Below are positions 820 through 57,902 of a DNA stretch of 58,270 nucleotides, piece by piece. Source of the DNA: Chloroflexota bacterium (GTDB lineage Bacteria > Chloroflexota > UBA6077 > FW602-bin22 > JAMCYS01); contig JAMCYS010000160.1 of NCBI GenBank assembly GCA_023473795.1, positions 1 to 58,270 of the forward strand, written 5' to 3'. Every line of letters starts with the position of its first letter. Within the stretch, counting starts at the first letter, position 1. Under the pieces are notes generated by a model. That model was given only the letters and a program-made list of their open reading frames with translations. It was not told the DNA's origin and made no database searches. Position numbers and translations under genes: made by a program.

Positions 820-913
820 CCGGCGCCGCGGCCACAGCTACCGCCACAGGCGGACCAATTGCCTTTCCCCCGACCACTGGGAGAGGCCCTTTTTCGTTAA
901 CCAACTGGTGATT

Positions 914-941
914 TTGCCAACTTGGCGAACTGTGTTATTAT
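914..941 (+). promoter_or_regulatory. Sigma-70-type promoter for the triheme protein gene
   Basis: TTGCCA (914-919), a 16-nt spacer and TATTAT (936-941). Predicted transcription start is near 948, about 200 nt upstream of the ATG of the triheme protein. This implies an unusually long 5-prime leader. Confidence 0.6.
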
Positions 942-947
942 GGTAGC

Positions 948-1150
948 TAGCCCAGAGGTACAGCGCCACACAGTAGAGAGCGCAGCAGGTCGCATTTCGA
1001 GACGGGATGCGCTAGAACGCGCGAAGAGGAGGTGACCCGGGAACCCTACTGGCGGGACGCTGGTCTCCGGTGACCACGGGCCGTCCCTCGAATGGAGGGT
1101 GTGTAGGGCGCGTTGCCTGGCAACGCGCGGCAATAAGGAGGCGCTGATTC
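948..1150 (+). promoter_or_regulatory. Long structured 5-prime leader of the triheme gene
   Basis: About 200 nt between the predicted transcription start and the ATG with no credible ORF. It ends in several hairpins: TGGTC/GACCA (around 1069-1084), CCCTC/GAGGG (1085-1089 with 1095-1099) and a 10-bp perfect inverted repeat at 1108-1117/1119-1128. The last one sits just before the AAGGAGG ribosome binding site at about 1135, so it could gate translation. It does not match a riboswitch class that I recognise. Confidence 0.45.
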
Positions 1151-1993
1151 ATGCACACTAGGCAGCGAGGGTTGCTTTACCTCTTCGCCATCTTGGGCCT
1201 GCTGGCGATGCTGGCGGCGGGAACGGGCGCGCTCAGCGCCGCTGCCCCCAACGGAACCGCGAGCATTACCGCGCCGGCGAACAACGCCACGTTGACCGGC
1301 ACGGTGCAGGTTCAGGGCACGGCAACGGCCAACAACTTCACCTTCTACAAGTTGGAATTTGGCTTGGGCGCCAACCCGACTAGCTGGTCGGTGATCGGCG
1401 TCCTGATGACCACCCAGGTGTCCTCCGGCAATCTCGGCGCCTGGGACACGACCAAAGTGCCGGACGGGCAGTACACGCTGAAGCTGACGGTGGTGGACAA
1501 CACCGGCAACTATCTCACGGCAGCGGTCCCGGTGACCGTGGCCAATGCCGGCCCGCCGCCGGCCCCCGCGGTGCCGCGGCGCGGCTGCACGGCCTGCCAC
1601 GTGCCGGTGAGGCCTGACGGCCGCTACTCGCTCGGTTGGGAGGCCATGAACGCGGCTAAGGCTATAGGTATCAACCATCCCACGGTCAGCCCGAGTGGCA
1701 TCTCGATCAAACCTACCGATACCGTCGGCCCTGCTCCCTGCCTCGAGTGCCACGGCGCGGGCAGCGGCGCGCGGGCGGACAACGGCGTTGTTGCCAACCT
1801 CTCTCTGCGCGACATCGTGCACCCGGCGCACATGTTCAGCGATATCTTCCCCAGCGAGTTCAAGGGCAACTGCTTCAGCTGCCACAACGTGAACAACGAG
1901 GGCGAGTTCATGATCCTCGGCCAGAAGGTGGACGTGAACGAGAACGGCATTCCCAAGGTGCTGCCGATTCCGGGCATGTTGGAGCCAACTTAG
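1151..1993 (+). CDS. Secreted triheme c-type cytochrome with Ig-like domain
   Basis: A 280-residue exported protein. Residues 1-31 form a signal peptide (basic start, hydrophobic core LLYLFAILGLLAMLA, Ala-rich cleavage region). Residues about 36-131 look like a bacterial Ig-like fold (TASITAPANN, then LKLTVVDNTGN). A short Pro/Ala hinge leads to a C-terminal region with three CXXCH haem sites: CTACH (146-150), CLECH (197-201) and CFSCH (241-245). Extra His residues (INHP at 175-178, VHPAH at 223-227) could be distal ligands. It probably carries electrons outside the membrane or binds a partner through its Ig module; no oxidoreductase partner is next to it. The ATG follows a strong AAGGAGG. 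It appears monocistronic, with its own promoter, leader and terminator. Confidence 0.85.
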   Translation: MHTRQRGLLYLFAILGLLAMLAAGTGALSAAAPNGTASITAPANNATLTGTVQVQGTATANNFTFYKLEFGLGANPTSWSVIGVLMTTQVSSGNLGAWDTTKVPDGQYTLKLTVVDNTGNYLTAAVPVTVANAGPPPAPAVPRRGCTACHVPVRPDGRYSLGWEAMNAAKAIGINHPTVSPSGISIKPTDTVGPAPCLECHGAGSGARADNGVVANLSLRDIVHPAHMFSDIFPSEFKGNCFSCHNVNNEGEFMILGQKVDVNENGIPKVLPIPGMLEPT

Positions 1994-2018
1994 GTCGCGG
2001 ACCGGCTCTGTCGACGCC

Positions 2019-2060
2019 AAGAGCCCCCTCCCCAGACGCGGGGAGGGGGCTCTTGTTTGT
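2019..2060 (+). terminator. Strong hairpin terminator after the triheme gene
   Basis: Perfect 15-bp stem (2019-2033 with 2040-2054), loop AGACGC, followed by GTTTGT. Strong enough to work for both strands. Confidence 0.8.
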
Positions 2061-2220
2061 AGTAGCGGGCTTAAGCACGCCCGCCTGGCCAGAAAGCGGG
2101 TCGGGCGCCCCGACCGCTGGTCATGGAGTCCGCAACATGAAGAATGCCAAAGCCGGCGGACTGAAGTCCGCACTACGAACGGGATGAACGGTTGTTTGTA
2201 GTGCGGACTTCAGTCCGTTC
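2055..2220. repeat. Dispersed GTTTGTAGT hairpin repeats (family C), three copies
   Basis: Copy at 2055-2084 has a GCGGGC/GCCCGC stem. Two further copies face each other, one inverted (2155-2180) and one direct (2194-2220), and pair over about 24 of 26 positions. Each copy is GTTTGTAGT followed by a palindrome centred on CTT(A/C)AG. Related copies occur at 30291-30365 and 54016-54079. No gene lies between 1994 and 2264. Confidence 0.75.
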
Positions 2221-2264
2221 GTCTCCTGCTTAGCTGAGGCTGGTAGTATTTGGCAAAGGATAGA

Positions 2265-3482
2265 CTACCTTTCCGCTGCCAGCTGGACTGCCCCGCAGGG
2301 GAAGACGGCGACCGAGCCTCCCCGGGGGTGGAACTCGGCCAGTGCCCCCAGTACGCCGCACCAGTCGTCAACCAGGCGCGCGTTCTTGGGCACGCTGTCC
2401 ATCAGCTGGCGCTGGTTGACGGTGTGGCAGAGGATGACCACGTTGCGCCCGGCCAGGCGAGGGTTGGGCTGTCTGTGCTCGTTGCGCATGTAGCGCCCCT
2501 CGAGCGAGTGGAAGCCGTAGCCGTCGCTGGAAGCGGAGACGATCACCACGGTGCCGCCCTCCCGCACCAGGGGCCGGCTGGCCGAGTTGAGAACGTGCAA
2601 GGCGTGGCCCAGGTGCATGAACTCGGTGTCCTTGGGGTACTGGTTGAAGACGCCGACGTCGGCGGGCTCGGGCGGCAAGGGCGTGGCCATAACCTCCAGT
2701 GCCCGCTTGCAGCCGGCGCGGTGCGCGGCCACCAGGTCGCCGACGAAGAGGCCGGTGATCTCGCGCCGGCCGCCGACGACCACGTTGGCGATGGCGTCGA
2801 TGCCGGCCAGGCGCACGCCCTCCTCCATGTCGGCTCGCCACTCGTTGCCCTCGATCTTGAGGAGCCCGCCCTGCAGGCGGCCGGGCCGGTGGTTCTGGTA
2901 GATGGTTTCGATGCCGGCCACGCCGGGGAAGACCGTCTTGGCGCCGGCGCTCAGGCCCGGGCCGCCGTGGGGCGAGATCTGGCCGATGCTCAACCGCATC
3001 TCGGCCTCCAGGTAGTGGCGGCTGAAGTAGACAGGCGTGCCGCGGCTGGTTTCGCCGACGTAGCCCAGGTACTCGTAAGGGTGATGGTTGATCACCTCGT
3101 AGCGGCGGACCACGTCCTCGCCCAGCTTCTTGGCCATCTCGGCGCGCGTCAGCGGCCGGTGGCAGGCGATGGCCATGAGGAACTTGATGTTCTCGTCGGG
3201 CACGCCCCCGGCGTGCAGCTCGGCCAGCACGTGCGGGATGAGCCGGTAAGCCGGCGTGGGCCGGGCGATGTCGTCGACGACGATGACGGCGCTCCGCTTG
3301 CCCCGTGCCAGCTCGGCCAGGCGCGGGGTGCCGATGGGGTTGGCGAAGGCCCGGCGGATGCCCTCCTCGCCGATGTCGGGCCCGCCCGCGGGCGGATAGA
3401 CGGTGACGGCAAAGCCGTCGGGGAAGTCGAGGGCCAGCGGCTCATCGCCGTGCCAGGAACGCCAGGTGAGCTCGATTTGCAT
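2265..3482 (-). CDS. LarA-type nickel-dependent racemase homologue (DUF2088)
   Basis: A 405-residue cytoplasmic protein of the lactate racemase LarA family, which uses a nickel-pincer nucleotide to move a hydride on 2-hydroxyacids. VVDDIARPTP (68-77) is the N-domain signature. The residues at the positions of the four LarA active-site residues are all present: His108 in ACHRP, His172 in PHGGPG, Lys182 in LSAGAK (the cofactor-bearing lysine of LarA) and His198 in YQNH. It should therefore be an active cofactor-dependent enzyme. LarB/C/E cofactor makers are not in the window. The substrate is unlikely to be lactate given the setting: it is the last gene of a minus-strand run after a transaminase and an M81 peptidase, so epimerisation of a 2-hydroxyacid derived from an amino acid is a fair inference. 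ATG start with AGGAGAAAGG upstream. Confidence 0.85.
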   Translation of the reverse strand: MQIELTWRSWHGDEPLALDFPDGFAVTVYPPAGGPDIGEEGIRRAFANPIGTPRLAELARGKRSAVIVVDDIARPTPAYRLIPHVLAELHAGGVPDENIKFLMAIACHRPLTRAEMAKKLGEDVVRRYEVINHHPYEYLGYVGETSRGTPVYFSRHYLEAEMRLSIGQISPHGGPGLSAGAKTVFPGVAGIETIYQNHRPGRLQGGLLKIEGNEWRADMEEGVRLAGIDAIANVVVGGRREITGLFVGDLVAAHRAGCKRALEVMATPLPPEPADVGVFNQYPKDTEFMHLGHALHVLNSASRPLVREGGTVVIVSASSDGYGFHSLEGRYMRNEHRQPNPRLAGRNVVILCHTVNQRQLMDSVPKNARLVDDWCGVLGALAEFHPRGGSVAVFPCGAVQLAAER

Positions 3483-5136: not shown

Positions 5137-6615
5137 CTACCACGGCTCCTGCAAATCAGGATCGAAGGGCCAGAGCGGGCGGCGAATCCGCCGGAAGGGC
5201 AAGCGAGTGAGATCGCTGTCGGTGGGTCCGGGCGTGTCCAGCTCGAAGATGGCCGCGGCAAACGAGCTGTAGATGGCCCGGAAGCCGCCCGGCGACTTGA
5301 CCTGCACTAGCTTGAAGTTCCGCGGCCGCAGGCCCGAGGAATGATACACCTCCCGGTCGATAGTCATCGCCGGCCGCTCGCTGAGCACCAGGGTAATCCC
5401 ACCGGCCTGGAAGACGGCCGTGCGGCCAGCGTGCACCGGCATCGGCGGCAGCTCGGCCTGGAAATCGCCGTCCGTGAGGGTCTTGACGTAGCCGGCCACC
5501 TGCACGGGCTGATAGAAGGCCGGCGTGAGCCGGCCGCCAACCGGCAGGGTGAGCCGGGCGCCGACGCCCGCCGCGAAGCAGGTAGCCACGGCCTGTGGAT
5601 CGGTGACCGTGAGCAGGGCAGTGTCTTGATAACCCGCCGCCAGCAGCGCCCGCAACAGCAGGTTGCCGTCGCCGTAGCCGCCGCCCGAGACACTGTCGGC
5701 GGAGTCGGTGACCACGACCGGTTTCTTCTCGCCGGCCAGCGCGAAGGCGATGACCTCCTCGATAGGCGTCTTCCGCACCAGGAAGCGCTCGCGGCGATCC
5801 CAGAGCATTCGGGCCAGTTCGTCGGCCCTGGCCTGGGCGAGGGCGCGGTCGCCGTCGGCCACCACCACCGTCGACCAGCCCAGTTCGGTCATGTCCATCC
5901 AGGGCTGAGTGGCGAAGACCGTCGCCGCCAGAATGCCTGGCTCCTGCTCCATGGCCAGGATGCGGTCCATGACCTCTTTCATCGGCCCCTGGCTGGTGTT
6001 GTGCCGCTCGGCCGAGGCGATCATGCGGGTCTTGCGCTGCATCACCACCGGCCGGATTTCGCCCTTCAGCGCCCGCACCAGGATGCGCATGGCGCGCTGG
6101 CCGGTGTCGTAGAAGTCGACGTGGGGATGGGTGTGATAGCCGACGATGGCATCCGCCGGCCTGACCGAAAGGTCGGTGAGGTGGCAGTGCATGTCGAAGG
6201 AAACGACTATGGGCACCTGGGGGCCGACGAGCTCGCGCACGCGGGTTAGCAAATCGCCTTCGGGGTCCTCCAGGCTCTCGGTGCTCATGGCCCCGTGCAG
6301 GGGCAGCATCACGCCGTCGATCCTGCCGGCGTTCTCGCGAGCGCCGGCCAGGATGCGATCGCGCATGTACTCGTAGGCGGCGTCCGCCACCACCGGCGCG
6401 GCGCCGCCAAAGGCGTCGATGGTCGGTATCAGCTCGACGTCCTCTTGCTGGGCGATGGCCAGTATGCCGTCGATCTCCTGGCCGGTTCCCCTGGCCGGGC
6501 CGAAGACGTCGGCACCTTCGACCAGGTGATTGTTGCGGAAGGTTTCCAGAGTGGCCACTCCGGGCACGAAGCTGACGGTCTCGTGCTTCATGCCGCCGAG
6601 CAGGACGCGCTTCAT
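5137..6615 (-). CDS. M81 family metallopeptidase, MlrC-like (copy a)
   Basis: A 492-residue cytoplasmic zinc enzyme related to MlrC, the last peptidase of microcystin breakdown, which cleaves linear peptides with non-standard residues. The N-terminal HET motif is at 11-13 and LHGAM is at 106-110. The metal site is read as Asp141 and His143 (SFDMHCH) plus His165 in HTHPHVDFYDTG; the spacing of 2 and 22 residues fits the family. The C-terminal MlrC_C domain shows TDSADSVSGGGYGDGN and VQVKSPGGFRAIYSSF. It is a close paralogue of copy b (11581-13059) and both appear to lie in the same transcript. The substrate is unknown; most M81 proteins have nothing to do with microcystin. ATG start; the ribosome site AGAGG is weak. 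Confidence 0.88.
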   Translation of the reverse strand: MKRVLLGGMKHETVSFVPGVATLETFRNNHLVEGADVFGPARGTGQEIDGILAIAQQEDVELIPTIDAFGGAAPVVADAAYEYMRDRILAGARENAGRIDGVMLPLHGAMSTESLEDPEGDLLTRVRELVGPQVPIVVSFDMHCHLTDLSVRPADAIVGYHTHPHVDFYDTGQRAMRILVRALKGEIRPVVMQRKTRMIASAERHNTSQGPMKEVMDRILAMEQEPGILAATVFATQPWMDMTELGWSTVVVADGDRALAQARADELARMLWDRRERFLVRKTPIEEVIAFALAGEKKPVVVTDSADSVSGGGYGDGNLLLRALLAAGYQDTALLTVTDPQAVATCFAAGVGARLTLPVGGRLTPAFYQPVQVAGYVKTLTDGDFQAELPPMPVHAGRTAVFQAGGITLVLSERPAMTIDREVYHSSGLRPRNFKLVQVKSPGGFRAIYSSFAAAIFELDTPGPTDSDLTRLPFRRIRRPLWPFDPDLQEPW

Positions 6616-11580: not shown

Positions 11581-13059
11581 TCACCAGGGCGCCGGCAGGT
11601 CGGGGTCGAACGGCCACAACGGCCGGCGAATCCGTTTGAAGGGCAGGCGCGGCAGCTCGCTGTCGCAGGGCCCGGGCGCATCCAGTTCGAAGATGCCGGC
11701 GGCGAAAGGCCCGTAGACGGCGCGGAAGCCCCCCGGGGACTTGACCTGCACGATCTTGTACTGGCGCGGCTCCAGGCCCGCCATGTGGTAGGCCGAGGTG
11801 TCGATAGTCTGCACCGGGTAAGAGGTCACGACGATGTGAATCGTCCCGACCTGCAGGACGGCGGTTGGCCCGGCATTCTTAGGGCTGGGTGGCAAGTCAC
11901 GAGTGAACTTGCCGTCGGTCAGCGTTTTCACCCGTCCGCTGACCATAACCGGCTGAAAGAACTGGGGATTCAGCTTGCCGCCCAGCGGCATAGTCACCTG
12001 TCCGCCCACGCCGGCGGCAAAGCAGGCGGTCGCTGCCTCGGGGTCGGTGAGGGTGAGGAGAGCCGTGTCCGCGTAGCCAGTTGCCAACAGCTCGCGCAGC
12101 AGGAAGTTGCCGTCGCCGTGGCCGCCGCCGCTTACGCTGTCGGAGGAGTCGGTGAACACCCAGGGCTGGCCCGCGCCGCCCAGGGCCTTTTCGATCGCGG
12201 CGCGGACGGGTGTCTTGTGCACTAGATACTGTTCGCGCCGCTGCCAGCACATTTGAGCCAGCTCGTCGGCTTTGGCCTGGGCGAGCGCGCGGTCGCCGTC
12301 CGCCACCACTACCGTGGCCCAACCCAGTTCGCTCAGGTCCATCCAGGGCTGGGAGGGGAAGTAGGTGGCAGCGAGAACCCCGGCTTCCTGCTCCATCTCT
12401 AAGCAACGCCCCATGACCTCACTGGCGGGCGGCAAGCTGGTGTTATGCCGCTCCGCCGAGGCCATCATGGGCAGCTTGCGGTAGGCGACGACGGGTTTGG
12501 CCTCGCCGCGCATGGCCTTCACCAGCAGGCGCATGGCGCGCACGCCGGTATCGTAGAAATCGACGTGGGGGTGGGTGTGGAAGCCGACGATGATGTCGGG
12601 TGCGCTGGCCTTGGTGGCCGTGAAGTGGCAGTGCATATCGTAGGAGACGGCGATGGGCATCCGCGAACCGACGATGGCGCGCACGGCGGCCGCCATGTCG
12701 CCCTCGGGATCCTCCAGGCTTTCGGTGGCCATGGCGCCGTGCAGGCACAGCATCACGCCGTCCAGGCGGCCTGCCTCAGCGCGGGCGGCGGCGAGCACGC
12801 GGTCGCGGATGTACTCGTAGGCGGCATCGGCGACCGGGGGGGCGGCGCCCGCGTAGGCGTCGATGACGGGAATCAGCTCGACTCCCTCCGCCCGGGCGAC
12901 CGCCACAACGCCGTCTATCTCCTGACCGCTGCCGCGGCCAGACCCCAGGACGTCGGCGCCCTCGAAGAGGACGTTGCGCCGAAACGTGTCCAAGTCCGCG
13001 ACCCCGGAGGAGAAGCTATTGACCTCGTGCTTTAGACCGGCGAGCAAGACGCGGTACAC
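11581..13059 (-). CDS. M81 family metallopeptidase, MlrC-like (copy b)
   Basis: A 492-residue paralogue of copy a, the same length and alignable end to end. It has KHEVNSF at 10-16, CLHGAM at 105-110, the metal site Asp141/His143 in SYDMHCH with His165 in HTHPHVDFYDTG, and the C-terminal TDSSDSVSGGGHGDGN and VQVKSPGGFRAVY. It is the first gene of the set-1 importer run (M81-DppB-SBP-DppC-URO-D-M81-transaminase-LarA), so peptide hydrolysis and import are coupled by transcription. GTG start at 13059, chosen because AGGAGGT lies 8 nt upstream. The sequence AGATTGCCGGC at 13108-13118 upstream recurs near the SDR and GntR genes. Confidence 0.88.
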   Translation of the reverse strand: MYRVLLAGLKHEVNSFSSGVADLDTFRRNVLFEGADVLGSGRGSGQEIDGVVAVARAEGVELIPVIDAYAGAAPPVADAAYEYIRDRVLAAARAEAGRLDGVMLCLHGAMATESLEDPEGDMAAAVRAIVGSRMPIAVSYDMHCHFTATKASAPDIIVGFHTHPHVDFYDTGVRAMRLLVKAMRGEAKPVVAYRKLPMMASAERHNTSLPPASEVMGRCLEMEQEAGVLAATYFPSQPWMDLSELGWATVVVADGDRALAQAKADELAQMCWQRREQYLVHKTPVRAAIEKALGGAGQPWVFTDSSDSVSGGGHGDGNFLLRELLATGYADTALLTLTDPEAATACFAAGVGGQVTMPLGGKLNPQFFQPVMVSGRVKTLTDGKFTRDLPPSPKNAGPTAVLQVGTIHIVVTSYPVQTIDTSAYHMAGLEPRQYKIVQVKSPGGFRAVYGPFAAGIFELDAPGPCDSELPRLPFKRIRRPLWPFDPDLPAPW

Positions 13060-38805: not shown

Positions 38806-41800
38806 ATGCAGCCGCTGGAAACCTACCTCGACGAGATGCGCCTGATCCACTCCTCGGGTGCCAACACGCCGGAAACGTCCTATTACCCGACTCTTGCCAA
38901 TCTGCTGAACGAGGTCGGCAAGACACTGAAGCCACGTGTGCGCTGCATCATGGGCTTGCGCGACCAGGGCGCCGGCTTGCCGGACGGCGGTCTCTTCACG
39001 CCGGAGCAGTTTCCGCGCTCGGGCCTACCACCGGCGAACACTATACCTACCAGGGGCGCCATCGAGGTCAAACCCGCCGCCGACAACTCCTGGCAGACGG
39101 CCGCGGGCGCTCAGGTGACGCGCTACGGTCAGCGCTACGGGCACGTGTTGGTGACCAACTACCGCGACTTCCTGCTGGTGGGGCCGAATGCCGGCGGGCA
39201 AACGGCCGTGCTGGAGCGCTACCATCTGGCGACCGACGAGGCAGCCTTCTGGGCGGCCGCGGTCCACCCCCGCCGACTGGCCCAAGAGCAGGGCGAGCGC
39301 TTCCTGGAGTTTCTGAAGCGCGTCATGCTCTATGCCGCACCCATCAGCAAGCCGCAGGACTTGGCCGGCTTCCTGGCCTCCTACGCGCGCGACGCCCGCT
39401 TGCGCCTGGAGATGGCGCCGCTGCCGGCCCTGGCGAGCGTGCGCCAGGCGCTCGAACAGGGCCTGGGACTGAAGTTCGAGGGCGACAAGGGCGAGCACTT
39501 CTTCCGCTCCACGCTGGTGCAGACGCTGTTCTACGGCCTCTTCGCCGCCTGGGTGCTCTGGGCGGAGCGGTTAGCGCCGGCTGACCAGCGCCTGTTTGAT
39601 CGGGACTCGGCGGCGCGCAACCTGAGGGTGCCCATCCTCAGACGCCTCTTCTACGAGCTGGCGGAGCCGGGCCAGATGGAGGAACTGCGCCTGGACGAGG
39701 TCCTGGACTGGGCCACGGCGGCCCTCAACCGGGTGGACCGGGCGGCCTTCTTCGCCAGCTTCCAGCAGGGGCAGGCGGTGCAGTATTTCTACGAGCCCTT
39801 CCTCGCCGCCTACGACCCGGAGCTGCGCAAGGAGCTGGGCGTGTGGTATACGCCGCCGGAGATCGTGCAGTACATGGTGGCGCGCGTAGACACGGTGCTG
39901 CGCCAGGAGCTGGGCCTGGCCGATGGGCTGGCGGATAGCAGCGTCTACGTGCTGGACCCCTGCTGCGGCACCGGCGCCTATCTGGTGGAGGCGCTGCGGC
40001 GGATCGAGGCTACGCTGGCGGCGAGGGGCCCGGACGCGCTGGCGGGGGCCGACTTGAAGAAGGCGGCCAGGGAGCGGGTCTTTGGCTTCGAGATTCTGCC
40101 CGCGCCGTTTGCCATCGCTCACCTGCAGGTGGGGCTCTTTCTCCAGCAGCGCGGCGCGCCGCTGGCCGCCGGCGAGCGGGCGGGCGTCTACCTGACCAAT
40201 TCGCTGACCGGCTGGGAGCCGCCCCAGGGGCCGAAACAGCGCCTGCTGTTCCCGGAATTGGAGGCGGAGCGCGACGCGGCGGGCGAGGTGAAGCAGAGCA
40301 AGCCGATTCTGGTAGTGCTCGGCAACCCGCCTTACAACGGCTTCGCGGGGGTCGCCGTGGGCGAGGAGCGCGAGCTATCGGCGGTGTATCGCCAGACCAA
40401 CAGGGCACCAGCACCCCAGGGCCAGGGGCTGAACGACCTTTATGTGCGCTTCTTCCGCGTGGCCGAGCGACGCATAGTGGACGCGACCGGCCGGGGCGTG
40501 GTCTGCTTCATCTCCAACTACTCCTGGCTGGATGGGTTGTCGTTCACCGGGATGCGGGAGCGCTGGCTGGGGGAGTTCAACCGTATTTGGATAGACAGTC
40601 TCAACGGCGACAAGTACCGCACGGGTAAGCTGACCCCGACCGGCGAGCCAGACCCGAGCGTGTTTTCGACGCCCCTCAACCCCGAGGGCATTCAAGTGGG
40701 CACGGCCGTCTCCCTCTTGGTCCGCCGGGTGGCTCTCGATGAGCCTAGCGAGCTGCGCTTCCGCAACTTGTGGGGCAAAGACAAGCTTGCCCAGTTGGCT
40801 CAGCACGCCGGCCGCGACGGCGGGACGCTCTACCAGTTGGTCAATCCGGCGAGCGAGCTGGGTCTGGCCTTCGTGCCGGCACAGATTGACCCCCGCTACC
40901 ACGCCTGGCCCAGCCTGCCGGCCTTGCTGCCGGTGTCGTACCCGGGGGTGAAGACGAGCCGCGACGACGTGGTGGTAGACATCGACCGCGAGCGGCTGGT
41001 GGCTCGGATGCGCCGGTATTTCGACCCCCAGGTAAGCCACGAGGAAATGCGCCGCCTGGCGCCGGGGGCGATGGAGAGCACGGCGCGCTTCGACGCCGTG
41101 GCGACTCGCGATTACCTGTGCCGGCGCGGGTTTCTGCCGGACAATATTGTGCGTTACTGCTATCGGCCGTTCGACGTGCGCTGGTTGTACTGGGAGTCGG
41201 AGACGAAGCTGTTGGATGAGAAACGGTCTGATTACTTCCGGCAGGTCAAGACTGTGGAGAACTTGTGGCTGAGCGCGGGCTAGCGCAACCGCAAGGACGA
41301 ATTCTACCAGCCCCAGTTCACGCGCCACCTTTCCGACCACCACATCGTGGAGTCTAACTCCAGCCTGTTCCCTCTCTGGAACAGTCCGGCCCAGAGTCAG
41401 ACTCCTTTGTTCGCCGACGATTGCCAAGCACGCCGGGCCAACCTCAGTGCGTCTGCCGAGTCGTTGCTATCAGCACTGCGCGCCAATCCCGTCGACCTGT
41501 TTCACCACGTCTTGGCCATACTTCATTCGCCACAATACGCGGCGAAGAATGGAGCCGCCCTGCGCCAGGACTGGCCGCGCGTGCCATTGCCGGCCCAGAG
41601 GGACGACCTGCTGGCCTCGGCGGCGCTGGGGAAGCAGTTGGCGGCCTTGTTGGACACGGAGACGGCCGTGGCCGGGGTAACGATGGGCAGCCCGCGTTCG
41701 GAACTGCAAACGCTAGGCCCCATCGCTCGGGCGGGGGGCGGCAGCCTCAATCCGGCGGCGGGGGAGCTGGCGCTGACCGCGAATTGGGGGTACGCCGGCC

Positions 41801-42204
41801 AGGGCGGGGTGACGATGCCGGGCGCGGGCAGACTGAGCGAGAGGGCCTACGACGCGGCGGAGCTGGCAGCCATCGAGGCGGGCGCCAAGGGCGCGGGCCT
41901 CTCCCTGGCCGAGGTTCTGGCCCTGCTGGGAGAGAGGACCTACGACGTTTACCTAAACGACGTGGCATACTGGCGCAACGTGCCGGTCAACGTCTGGCGG
42001 TACACCATCGGCGGCTATCAGGTGGTCAAGAAGTGGCTCAGCTACCGGGGGCGGCAGCTGCTGGGGCGCGACCTGAAGGTGGAGGAGGCGCGCGAGGTGG
42101 CACAGATGGTGCGGCGGATAGCGGCCATTCTGCTGCTGCAGCCCCAGCTGGACGAGAACTACCGGCGGTCGCGGGACGACGCCTACCCCTGGCCGGGCAA
42201 GTGA
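38806..42204 (+). pseudogene. Type ISP/IIG-like restriction-methylation gene with in-frame amber stop
   Basis: One continuous frame of 1,132 sense codons is broken only by TAG at 41281-41283, giving a front part of 825 residues. The nuclease end has Glu23, Asp60 and Glu87-Val-Lys89 (PD-ExK pattern). The helicase-free middle leads to an N6-adenine methyltransferase with TPPEIVQYM, motif I DPCCGTGAYLV at 384 and NPPY at 507. After the stop the frame goes on as RNRKDEFYQPQFTRHLSDHH and a target-recognition-like C-terminal region to 42204. The residue at the TAG is plausibly Gln (CAG to TAG). The front part keeps both catalytic domains but loses about 300 residues expected to recognise DNA, so it is probably inactive unless the stop is read through. 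ATG start; GAGGAGG upstream. Confidence 0.82.
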
Positions 42205-43253: not shown

Positions 43254-43282
43254 TTGCCTCCTCTGCTTGCCTCTGCTAGAAT
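43254..43282 (+). promoter_or_regulatory. Promoter of the TPP riboswitch operon
   Basis: TTGCCT (43254-43259), 17-nt spacer, TAGAAT (43277-43282). Predicted start near 43289, just before the riboswitch. Confidence 0.65.
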
Positions 43283-43300
43283 AGGGGCGACAAGCGAATA

Positions 43301-43395
43301 TTGACCCGGGAGCTTGGGCAAGCCAGGCTGAGAGGGTGGCCACCGCCACCGACCGGAGGAACCCGATCTGGATAATGCCAGCGTGGGGAGACTTC
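43301..43395 (+). promoter_or_regulatory. TPP riboswitch (THI element)
   Basis: The conserved core is plain: GGCTGAGAGGGTGG near 43326, AACCCGATCTGGATAATGCC near 43360 and AGCGTGGGGAG at the 3-prime side. An 8-bp hairpin follows (43401-43408 with 43421-43428) without a U-run. The AAGGAG at 43453 lies 25 nt further on, so control may act through RNA folding around translation or a weak terminator. It governs the PurM-fold gene and thiE. Confidence 0.95.
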
Positions 43396-43465
43396 TTTCT
43401 GGCCCCGCTGGATTTGCCCGGCGGGGCCATTCGATTGTCAGAAAACTCGCCCAAGGAGAGCGCGA

Positions 43466-44488
43466 ATGGCTGTTGGCAAGATCTCGGACCGATTCTTCTC
43501 CGAGCGCGTCAGACCGCACTTGGGGGCGCGCCGGAATGACGTCATCGTGGGGCCGCACCTGGGCACGGATGCCGCCGTCATCGACCAGGGGAACGGCCGC
43601 GTGATGGTGGTGGCCGAGGACCCGATCTTCCTCGTGCCGGGCGTCACCATCGACGACTTCGGCTGGTACACGGTGCACATCGGCGCCAGCGACGTGGCGG
43701 TCACCGGCGTAGTCCCCTCGCACATGACCTACTCCTTGCTCCTGCCCCCGGACACGGGCGAAGAAACCATCGCCGAGATCGTGCGGGCGGTGAGCGATAC
43801 TGCCAAAGAACTCGGCATCGCCATCGTCGGCGGACACACCGGCTACGCCCCGGTTGTAGTCGCGCCCACCATCGGCGGCATCACGGTCTTCGGTTGGGGC
43901 GATCGCTACGCGAGTCCGGCCGGCGCGCGCGAGGGAGACGACCTATTGATCACCAAGGGTCCGGCGATCGAGGCGGCGGGGATTCTCGCCCGCCAGTACC
44001 GAGAGGAGCTGCTGGCTGGCGGCGTTGCGCCCCACCTCGTCGCGCGCGCCGCGGCGCACATCCGCTCGATGAGCGTCGTCCAGGACGCGCTCACCGCCTT
44101 TGCCGCGGGTGAGGTGCATGCGATGCACGACGCCACCGAGGGCGGGCTGGTGCGCGGCAGCTATGAGATGGCCGAGTCGGCAGCAATAGGTCTGCGGGTC
44201 GAGCGCGACGCTATCGTAGTGCCCGAGGAGATCGCCGCCGTGTGCTCGTTCCTAAACATCGATCCACTCCATTCGATCAGCGAGGGCACGCTGGTGGCGG
44301 CCGTGCAACCCGATTCGACCGCGGCGGTGCTCGGCCGACTCCACGAGGCGGGGATACCCGCCTGGAAGATCGGCCGGTTTACGGCTCGCTCGGCAGGGAT
44401 CAAGTTCACGGATGGCGAGGAGATCCGCCCGGCCGCCGAAGATCCCTTCTGGAACGTCTTCTTCGCCAAACTGGCGGCACAGGGTTGA
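43466..44488 (+). CDS. PurM/ThiL-fold (AIR synthase-related) protein under TPP control
   Basis: A 340-residue member of the PurM/HypE/SelD/ThiL superfamily, which bind ATP at a dimer interface. VGPHLGTDAAVI (about 28-39) is the N-terminal metal-ATP motif, VGASDVAVTG-like IGASDVAVTGVVPS follows near 72, and IVGGHTGYAP near 120 and MHDATEGGLVRGSYE near 215 are the C-domain marks. It lacks the C-terminal Cys of HypE and is not close to classical ThiL. Being the first gene behind a TPP riboswitch and directly before thiE, it probably acts in thiamine phosphate metabolism, possibly as the TMP kinase. That is inference from context. Confidence 0.8.
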   Translation: MAVGKISDRFFSERVRPHLGARRNDVIVGPHLGTDAAVIDQGNGRVMVVAEDPIFLVPGVTIDDFGWYTVHIGASDVAVTGVVPSHMTYSLLLPPDTGEETIAEIVRAVSDTAKELGIAIVGGHTGYAPVVVAPTIGGITVFGWGDRYASPAGAREGDDLLITKGPAIEAAGILARQYREELLAGGVAPHLVARAAAHIRSMSVVQDALTAFAAGEVHAMHDATEGGLVRGSYEMAESAAIGLRVERDAIVVPEEIAAVCSFLNIDPLHSISEGTLVAAVQPDSTAAVLGRLHEAGIPAWKIGRFTARSAGIKFTDGEEIRPAAEDPFWNVFFAKLAAQG

Positions 44489-44548
44489 GCCTCTCTGGAG
44501 ACGCAGGCCCGCATGGCGGGCGAATCAGAATGCGAGGTGTAAGCAATC

Positions 44549-45184
44549 GTGGTACAGGCAAAGCCGCAAATAAGAGGTCTTTACGTGATCACGGACGAGG
44601 CGGTGTGGGGCAAGCGGCACGTGGACATCGCGGCCGCGGCGCTGCGGGGAGGGGCGCGAGTCATTCAGCTGCGGGACAAGACGAAACACGACGCCGAGCT
44701 GCTGCCCATCGCCAGGGACATCTTGGCGCTCTGCCGCCAACACGGCGCCGTCTTCATCGTCGACGACCGGGCCGACCTTGCCGTGGCCTGTGATGCCGAT
44801 GGCGTCCACGTCGGCGAATACGATCTGCCGCTGTCCGCCGCCCGCAAGGTCGTTGGCCCGGATAGACTCGTCGGCGTCTCCTGCTACGGGAACGTCGAGG
44901 CCGCCGCCCAGGCCGAGCGGGAGGGAGCCGACTACGTCGCGGTGGGATCGATCTACCCCACGCGCACCAAGCAGGCCGCGGTCACGGGGCTGGAGATCAT
45001 CCGGCAGGTAAAGGCCCGGGTCTCCCTGCCCGTGGTCGCCATCGGCGGCATCGAGGCGGGCAACCTGGCCGAGGTCGTGCGGGCGGGGGCGGACTCCGCC
45101 TCGGTCGTGGAGGCGGTGGCGGGCGCGGACGACATGGTGGCGGCGACTCGCAACCTGATCGACATCATCGAGAGCGCTAGGTAA
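44549..45184 (+). CDS. thiE: Thiamine-phosphate synthase ThiE
   Basis: A 211-residue TIM-barrel enzyme that joins HMP-pyrophosphate and the thiazole phosphate to make thiamine monophosphate. The family signatures are all seen: IQLRDKTKHDAEL (about 39-51), FIVDDRADLAVACDADGVHV, GVSCYGNVEAA, DYVAVGSIYPTRTKQAA and VVAIGGI near the end. GTG start 60 nt after the PurM-fold gene and in the same TPP-controlled transcript. ThiD, ThiM and ThiC are not in the window, so this operon covers only the last steps. Confidence 0.96.
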   Translation: MVQAKPQIRGLYVITDEAVWGKRHVDIAAAALRGGARVIQLRDKTKHDAELLPIARDILALCRQHGAVFIVDDRADLAVACDADGVHVGEYDLPLSAARKVVGPDRLVGVSCYGNVEAAAQAEREGADYVAVGSIYPTRTKQAAVTGLEIIRQVKARVSLPVVAIGGIEAGNLAEVVRAGADSASVVEAVAGADDMVAATRNLIDIIESAR

Positions 45185-56438: not shown

Positions 56439-57902
56439 ATGAAGCGAGTGATCTTGGCTAACCTCGCCCAGGAAACGTGCAGCTTCGCCCCGACCCACCA
56501 CAGCCTTGAGTCCTTCCGGCGCTACTATCTGCTGTTCGACGACGAGATCATCCCCCAGCTACGCCAGGAAAGGATGGAGCCGGCGGGCATCATCGCCGTG
56601 GCCGAGGCGGAGGGCATCGAGCTGCTGCCCACCGTCGCCTCCTACGGCGGCACCGGCGGCCCGGTGACCGACGAGGCCTACTTCTACCTGCGCGACCAGA
56701 TAGTGGCGCGGGTGCGCCGCTTCGCCCCGCGGGCCGACGGCGCCGTGCTGGCCCTGCACGGGGCCATGGTCGGCGAGAGCGTGGACGACACGGAGGGCGA
56801 CCTGATCGGCCAGGTGCGCCAGGCGCTGGGGCCGGACAAACCGATCGTCGTCAGCCTGGACATGCACGCCCACATCACCGCGGAGATGATCGAAGGCGCC
56901 AATGCCATCGTGGGCTACCACACCTGGCCGCACGAGGATATCTACGAGACCGGCATGCGGGCGATGCGGCTGCTGGGCAGGATACTGCGCGGCGAGGTGC
57001 AGCCGGTGCTGGCCTACCGCAAGCTGCCTATGATCACCCCGCCGGAGACGCACCGCGTTAGTCAGAAGCCGATGAGCGAGGTGATGGGCCGGGCCCTGGC
57101 GGCCGAACGCGAGCCGGGGGTGCTGGCGGCGACTATCTTCGCCACCCAGCCACAGCTGGACGTGCCCAATCTCGGCTGGTCGTCGGTGGTGGTGGCCGAC
57201 GGCGATCGTGCGCGGGCGCAGGCCGTGGCCGATGAGATCGCCGAGATCGCCTGGCGCGAACGGCGCAACTTCCTCCACCAGCGCACGCCCGTGGCAGAGG
57301 CGCTACGCCGGGCGCGAGAGGTAGAGAGCGGGCCGGTGGTGCTGGCCGACTCCTCCGACGGCACGGCCGGCGGGGGTGAGGGCGACAGCACCGTGCTGCT
57401 GGAGGCGCTGCTGCAGTCGCCCGTGCCGGGGCAGACCTTGCTGTTGATAGTCGACCCGGAGGCGGTCGCGGCTTGCGTCGAGGCGGGGGTGCGGGCCGAG
57501 ATCACTCTGCCGGTGGGCGGCAAGATCGCCAGCCAGTTCTACCACCCTGTGACCGTGACCGGCAGGGTAAAGACCATCTCGGACGGCGTCTTCAAGATGA
57601 AAGTGCCAACCCTGCCGGCGGACCGGGGGCGCACGGCGGTGCTGCAGGTGGGCGAGCTCTTCATCGTGCTGAGTGAGAAGCCGGTGTATACCTGGGATGA
57701 AGAGTGCTATCGCAGCGTGGGGCTGTTCCCGCGGGAGGCGAAACTGGTGCAGGTGAAATCGCCGGGCGGCTTCCGGCCGGTGTACGAGCCGTTTGCCAAG
57801 GAGATCATCGAGCTGGACGCCCCCGGACCGGTAGACAGCGAGCTGACGCGCCTGCCCTACCGGCGGGTGACGCGACCCCTCTTCCCGCTGGACGAGATGT
57901 AG
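56439..57902 (+). CDS. M81 family metallopeptidase, MlrC-like (copy c)
   Basis: A 487-residue MlrC-like enzyme, more distant from copies a and b. The expected metal ligands are kept at the same positions: Asp141 and His143 in SLDMHAH and His165 in GYHTWPHEDIYETG. The usual N-terminal HET is QET here (Gln11). Other marks are ALHGAM at 105-110, DSSDGTAGGGEGDST and VQVKSPGGFRPVYEPFA. Unlike the other copies it is transcribed alone from its own promoter on the plus strand, 30 kb away from the importer block. AGGAGAAGGGACGCG precedes the ATG. Substrate unknown. Confidence 0.87.
   Translation: MKRVILANLAQETCSFAPTHHSLESFRRYYLLFDDEIIPQLRQERMEPAGIIAVAEAEGIELLPTVASYGGTGGPVTDEAYFYLRDQIVARVRRFAPRADGAVLALHGAMVGESVDDTEGDLIGQVRQALGPDKPIVVSLDMHAHITAEMIEGANAIVGYHTWPHEDIYETGMRAMRLLGRILRGEVQPVLAYRKLPMITPPETHRVSQKPMSEVMGRALAAEREPGVLAATIFATQPQLDVPNLGWSSVVVADGDRARAQAVADEIAEIAWRERRNFLHQRTPVAEALRRAREVESGPVVLADSSDGTAGGGEGDSTVLLEALLQSPVPGQTLLLIVDPEAVAACVEAGVRAEITLPVGGKIASQFYHPVTVTGRVKTISDGVFKMKVPTLPADRGRTAVLQVGELFIVLSEKPVYTWDEECYRSVGLFPREAKLVQVKSPGGFRPVYEPFAKEIIELDAPGPVDSELTRLPYRRVTRPLFPLDEM

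Follow-up and report, generated by a model that had tools for sequence, protein, structure and literature searches.

The PurM fold is shared by ThiL, a member of an ATP-dependent family that acts in the thiamine pathway, by HypE, a hydrogenase maturation protein with a characteristic C-terminal cysteine, and by SelD, the selenophosphate synthetase. E. coli ThiK and thiamine pyrophosphokinase (PF04263) have other folds, and so do ThiD (PF08543) and ThiD2 (PF17792). The gene encoding ThiD often neighbours those encoding ThiE or ThiN, and ThiD2 is reportedly devoid of HMP kinase activity. PMC4210487 reportedly concerns a SelD-like archaeal family. The PurM-fold family analysed below is not described among the literature matches listed, in a search with most subscription journals beyond its scope.

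A TPP riboswitch upstream of a PurM-fold gene and thiE

The only RNA detected at Rfam thresholds across the full window (the whole 58,270-nt stretch of DNA analysed) is a TPP riboswitch aptamer (RF00059; positions 43296–43406, + strand), which covers the full-length model with a score of 63.8 bits (gathering score 54.3, E = 3.1e-10). This aptamer was also recovered by our own covariance model, R1, whose training set contains it. Directly downstream on the same strand, a gene encoding a PurM-fold protein of 340 amino acids (43466–44488, +), thus placed in a TPP riboswitch regulon, is followed after about 60 nt by thiE, which has a GTG start and encodes a thiamine-phosphate synthase (TMP synthase) of 211 amino acids (44549–45184, +; TIGR00693, 198 bits, cut-off 145.1). 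The succession of riboswitch, PurM-fold gene and thiE read in the preliminary description of this DNA is thereby confirmed. Just 5′ of the aptamer, a sigma-70-like promoter site (43254–43282, +) combines the hexamers TTGCCT and TAGAAT, separated by 17 nt, with a TG ahead of the second one; one such site was found versus a mean of 0.2 in shuffled sequence, a consensus match that is no proof of a promoter. RNA folding also predicts a 12-bp hairpin (43400–43429, +) between the aptamer and the PurM-fold gene, its first bases overlapping the 3′ end of the aptamer model; this hairpin is a possible expression platform that might act by termination or translation.

The protein contains an AIRS domain (56.4 bits) and an AIRS_C domain (78.6 bits), both above the Pfam cut-offs, and by these domains and its fold it is a member of the PurM/AIR-synthase superfamily. 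It exceeds the cut-off of none of the NCBIfam families listed (hypE, thiL, selD and others). The AlphaFold model (mean pLDDT 91.5) is most similar to HypE (Z 36.5, rmsd 2.1, 314 residues aligned), followed by ThiL (Z 29.9) and SelD (Z 29.7); these matches span most of the chain, and Foldseek concurs on the superfamily. A profile of 13 members of the clade defined below aligns over nearly the full domain with a profile of 11 ThiL sequences (E = 4.9e-25). D35, D52 and D76, all acidic, are retained in the clade, as is an HDATEGG stretch, and other conserved acidic positions are common to ThiL. The VHF, PxPR and EDYEL motifs, which show little or no variation among the 11 ThiL sequences, are lost in the 13-member profile; TMP, bound in the way ThiL binds it, is therefore probably not the acceptor. 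According to the translation, the protein has a single cysteine, which is internal, and none at its C-terminus.

Elsewhere in the window, an adenine-methylase-type restriction gene recognized by eye (38806–42204, +) seems to be split into two ORFs (38806–41283 and 41347–42204), perhaps by a frameshift. Three similar ORFs of 487–492 amino acids (5137–6615, 11581–13059 and 56439–57902), located among ABC transporter genes, resemble MlrC (microcystinase C) by eye.

Phylogeny, riboswitches and neighbours of the clade

In a tree of 56 rows, the window protein falls inside a 13-row clade with 100/100 support, and the clade is recovered with the same support in a larger tree, where it includes 41 of the 48 rows. 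In the latter, the window protein joins that of genome G201 at 100/97 and those of G162 and G294 only at 89/75, with a long-branch warning for G201 and others. The G201 protein is also the closest relative found (48% identity over 337 columns), and across 29 genomes from its class, the top match beyond the window's own genome is 42% identical. The clade is present in several Chloroflexota families and in three haloarchaeal loci; no relative was confirmed in the viral contigs scanned.

Among the 42 clade loci examined (including the truncated L116), 18 have a TPP riboswitch on the same strand at most 300 nt upstream of the clade gene. Six of these 18 aptamers were used to build R1, and all 18 independently pass the Rfam gathering score. 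In 30 loci of sister clades, some of them shortened by contig ends, the same covariance model detected none. Two weak R1 matches were left uncounted: L179 3136–3241 (18.7 bits) and L055 10174–10267, on the opposite strand (12.2 bits). The adjacent riboswitch is absent from the other 24 clade loci, among them that of a paralogue on contig C47 of the window's own genome; L118 and L119 have a TPP riboswitch farther off, over a different gene, and the remaining 22 have none adjacent. The distant riboswitch of L118 (3322–3426, 64.7 bits) precedes an ORF of 817 amino acids (851–3304, −) which by eye corresponds to a zinc alcohol dehydrogenase fused to a LuxE-like domain.

A TMP synthase gene directly follows the clade gene in 12 of the 42 loci. 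Ten of these (the window, eight loci of genus g49 and G078) encode ThiE, and the other two (G162 and G294) encode the unrelated archaeal-type ThiN (PF10120, 147 and 157 bits, respectively). Other thiamine-related neighbours include ThiD (PF08543, 287 bits), encoded by the next gene in the Natrialbaceae locus L057, and, in G201 (locus L186), a thiamine-binding protein of the MTH1187 family (65.3 bits, cut-off 54.7), encoded directly upstream by an ORF that, as called, shares 41 nt with the clade gene. In three genomes of family f28 (G043, G052 and G061), the riboswitch and the clade gene are followed by genes for an ABC ATPase, a permease and an NMT1/THI5-like binding protein, i.e., a ThiXYZ-type transporter. 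The permease was identified by Pfam in all three loci, and the binding protein matches PF09084 in G043 (205.6 bits), those of G052 and G061 being 60% identical to it.

No neighbouring thiamine gene was recognized by eye for riboswitch-less members such as those of families f51 and f7 and of Dehalococcoides-like G034, G046 and G071, or for the C47 copy of the window's own genome. An ORF resembling the regulator SufR, below its cut-off, lies directly 5′ of riboswitch-less members (L023:4114–4749 and L175:5118–5873), the C47 copy included; in L023 it is itself preceded by an ORF that resembles by eye an aldehyde:ferredoxin oxidoreductase.

We also scanned 10 of the 11 ThiD2–ThiE fusions (all except that of G260). 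The ThiE match stops at model position 119–127 of 180 in eight of them, corresponding to the ThiD2-bearing ORFs of L187, L188 and L190–L195, and in each of these eight genomes a TMP synthase gene adjoins the clade gene (thiE in seven and, in G162, thiN). Since 8 of the 10 fusions have the shortened ThiE match in a genome with this pair, the pair is supported as a unit. Nevertheless, in G078 and G294, where the pair also occurs, the fusion retains all or almost all of its ThiE domain.

Taken together, these data establish a solid link between the gene and thiamine. Very probably, the clade represents a branch of the PurM/HypE/ThiL/SelD enzymes that is new, dedicated to thiamine and distinct from ThiL.

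Thiamine genes of the genomes and the candidate reactions

The preliminary description had suggested that the protein might phosphorylate TMP in a lineage without a normal ThiL. This proposal does not hold: the window's own genome encodes a classical ThiL (G000:C71:33368–34342, 269.8 bits, cut-off 184.15), as do the 11 others tested, and the replacement of ThiL was thus rejected. The expected association of the family with TPP riboswitches was observed (18/42 loci versus 0/30 in sister clades), whereas the expected association with the absence of thiL was not, in the 12 genomes tested. Similarly, of the two observations announced as contrary to the proposal, the classical thiL was found, whereas the homologues do show a thiamine link, through the adjacent riboswitch or TMP synthase described above. 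The fallback suggestion of another salvage step is now favoured.

The window's own genome also contains a canonical thiD (356.7 bits), three copies of thiE and three further TPP aptamers, one of which is below the Rfam threshold. Their targets are a CytX-type transporter (TIGR02358, 393.1 bits, above cut-off), thiG-thiH-thiE and thiC; thiG, thiH and thiC were read by eye, and thiE was confirmed by profile. The sub-threshold aptamer (L021 3136–3277, −; 42.1 bits), behind which thiC lies, is longer than the other aligned aptamers. A third PurM-fold paralogue of this genome (L024:6676–7680, −) lies beside an ORF resembling SelB by eye, in a locus without TPP riboswitch.

We surveyed 400 Chloroflexota genomes with a completeness of at least 85%, calling the clade gene at E = 1e-75 or better; these genomes are not independent, and absences could reflect assembly gaps. 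The clade gene is present in 37 of them, ThiD in 176, ThiE in 207, ThiD2 in 33 and thiamine pyrophosphokinase in 217; ThiL was searched in 12 genomes, and ThiN, ThiM, TenA, ThiC and ThiK were outside the genome-wide searches. A further gene-bearing genome, G060 (84% complete), stands outside the 400. Thiamine pyrophosphokinase was found in only one of the 37 gene-bearing genomes (G201) versus 216 of the 363 others (p = 1.7e-12). This avoidance is seen among ThiE-positive genomes (0/30 versus 53/177, p = 7.7e-5) as well as among ThiE-negative ones (1/7 versus 163/186, p = 4.5e-5), although these p-values are too small, since kin are treated as independent and the 37 genomes represent only 16 families. 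ThiE-negative is not equivalent to synthesis-negative, G162 having ThiN.

The distribution of HMP-P kinases is also uneven. Among ThiE-positive genomes, the clade gene occurs in 17 of the 37 without ThiD versus 13 of the 170 with ThiD (Fisher test, 1.4e-7; odds ratio 10.3), and no ThiD was found above cut-off in six genomes of the 12-genome test. ThiD2 was detected in 20 of the 38 genomes that carry the clade gene; of the 37 ThiE-positive genomes without ThiD, 30 have it. At least one of the two enzymes was detected in 33 of the 38 gene-bearing genomes, and neither in G043, G052, G060, G061 and G201; all 30 gene-bearing genomes that are ThiE-positive have one.

The three f28 genomes provide the weightiest evidence for reading the function of the gene. 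ThiE, ThiD, ThiD2 and thiamine pyrophosphokinase were not found in them at the thresholds used, and ThiL is present in G043 and G052, the two that were tested for it. In these two genomes, TMP therefore needs another source. ThiN, an enzyme outside our genome-wide searches, could be this source. A thiamine kinase would explain the combination of ThiL, riboswitch, clade gene and transporter without any further assumption, and for this reason we tentatively favour the most parsimonious reading, namely that the protein is an ATP-dependent thiamine kinase and produces TMP for ThiL. This reading would also explain the avoidance of thiamine pyrophosphokinase, and the pairing with either ThiE or ThiN, since both enzymes would then supply TMP to ThiL.

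According to this model, a low level of TPP would allow the riboswitch to permit expression of the PurM-fold gene and thiE, as expected from known TPP riboswitches. The PurM-fold protein, which would use ATP like its relatives, as its fold and conserved acidic residues suggest, would most likely phosphorylate thiamine to TMP, which the separate classical ThiL would then convert into TPP. A single message could thus provide two sources of TMP, salvage by the PurM-fold protein and synthesis by ThiE, and in ThiL-using genomes the protein may substitute for thiamine pyrophosphokinase or for a ThiK of the E. coli type. Several observations fit this model less well. G201 holds both the clade gene and a pyrophosphokinase, 24 of the 42 clade loci have no adjacent riboswitch, and the counts that suggest mutual exclusion ignore kinship. 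Among the enzymes searched, G043 and G052 show the combination that would call for a thiamine kinase (ThiL without ThiE or pyrophosphokinase); the window's genome has ThiE. ThiXYZ-type transporters are best known for a pyrimidine precursor, and phosphorylation of an alcohol is not known to us for any enzyme of the PurM fold.

The transporter adjacent to the gene in the three f28 loci is also an argument for the main rival, a pyrimidine kinase that would convert HMP to HMP-P, and perhaps HMP-P to HMP-PP, feeding the adjacent TMP synthase as ThiD does. The proximity to ThiE or ThiN, recalling that of ThiD, the excess of the gene in ThiD-negative genomes and the frequent co-occurrence with ThiD2, given the activity this enzyme is said to lack, point in the same direction. 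We nonetheless consider an HMP kinase rather doubtful: ThiD or ThiD2 is already available in every gene-bearing ThiE-positive genome, the window's own genome has its canonical ThiD, ThiD stands beside the clade gene in L057, and the product would be a dead end in f28 unless both a TMP synthase and an HMP-P kinase escaped detection in these genomes. A simple replacement of ThiD, attractive in view of the ThiD-negative skew, was dropped as first choice given the ThiD2 found in most ThiE-positive, ThiD-negative genomes and the ThiD or ThiD2 found in most gene-bearing ones. The adjacency to ThiE or ThiN would equally suit a hydroxyethylthiazole kinase, analogous to ThiM, making the other substrate of TMP synthase; this seems very unlikely, as the f28 genomes have the riboswitch-controlled gene without ThiE, which would again call for an unseen TMP synthase, and the window's genome seems to synthesize thiazole itself, with thiG and thiH (by eye) under a TPP riboswitch.

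The fold itself leads to two further possibilities. With ThiL among its nearest folds and TMP synthase as the commonest partner seen, the protein might be a second, riboswitch-controlled TMP kinase working alongside the housekeeping ThiL; this is quite unlikely considering that ThiL is already present in all genomes tested, that its three motifs are not conserved in the clade and that HypE is nearer than ThiL in both sequence and fold. This proximity to HypE, together with the members located beside a SufR-like regulator without a riboswitch, would fit another thiamine-handling role that involves no simple kinase reaction, for instance one concerned with TPP or with an analogue of thiamine, or one in which an amide or thiol is activated as by HypE. 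We have no direct evidence against such a role, which is less economical and which we regard as unlikely.

If the thiamine kinase reading is correct, it would supply the missing step in genomes with ThiL and thiamine uptake but no known enzyme from thiamine to TMP, and it would broaden the range of reactions of the PurM superfamily. In its full extent, the proposal is possible but somewhat doubtful: thiamine kinases with a PurM fold would form an unrecognized family, the earliest known of the superfamily to phosphorylate an alcohol, and would provide TMP for ThiL in Chloroflexota and some haloarchaea, as part of a riboswitch-controlled pair with ThiE or ThiN that would supersede a decaying ThiD2–ThiE fusion in one group of small Chloroflexota genomes.

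Comparison with known enzymes

The protein shares with ThiD and ThiD2 the partnership with ThiE or ThiN and the TPP riboswitch; it differs from them in fold and in being accompanied by one or the other in all gene-bearing ThiE-positive genomes. With E. coli ThiK and thiamine pyrophosphokinase it would have in common the phosphorylation of thiamine, in another fold, and 36 of the 37 gene-bearing genomes show no pyrophosphokinase. Within the PurM superfamily, similarity-based annotation of proteins such as these readily yields HypE or ThiL, and on present evidence neither name is right for the clade. The window protein resembles SelD in fold, but scores 74.1 bits against the SelD model (TIGR00476), whose cut-off is 125. 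It resembles ThiL in its fold, its affiliation to an ATP-dependent family and its thiamine context, but reaches only 80.8 bits of the 184.15 required by TIGR01379, lacks the characteristic ThiL motifs and coexists with a separate ThiL. HypE provides the nearest solved fold and the nearest solved sequences; however, the protein scores 90.9 bits against a cut-off of 251.6 for TIGR02124, its sole cysteine is internal, and it shares its operon with a thiamine gene.
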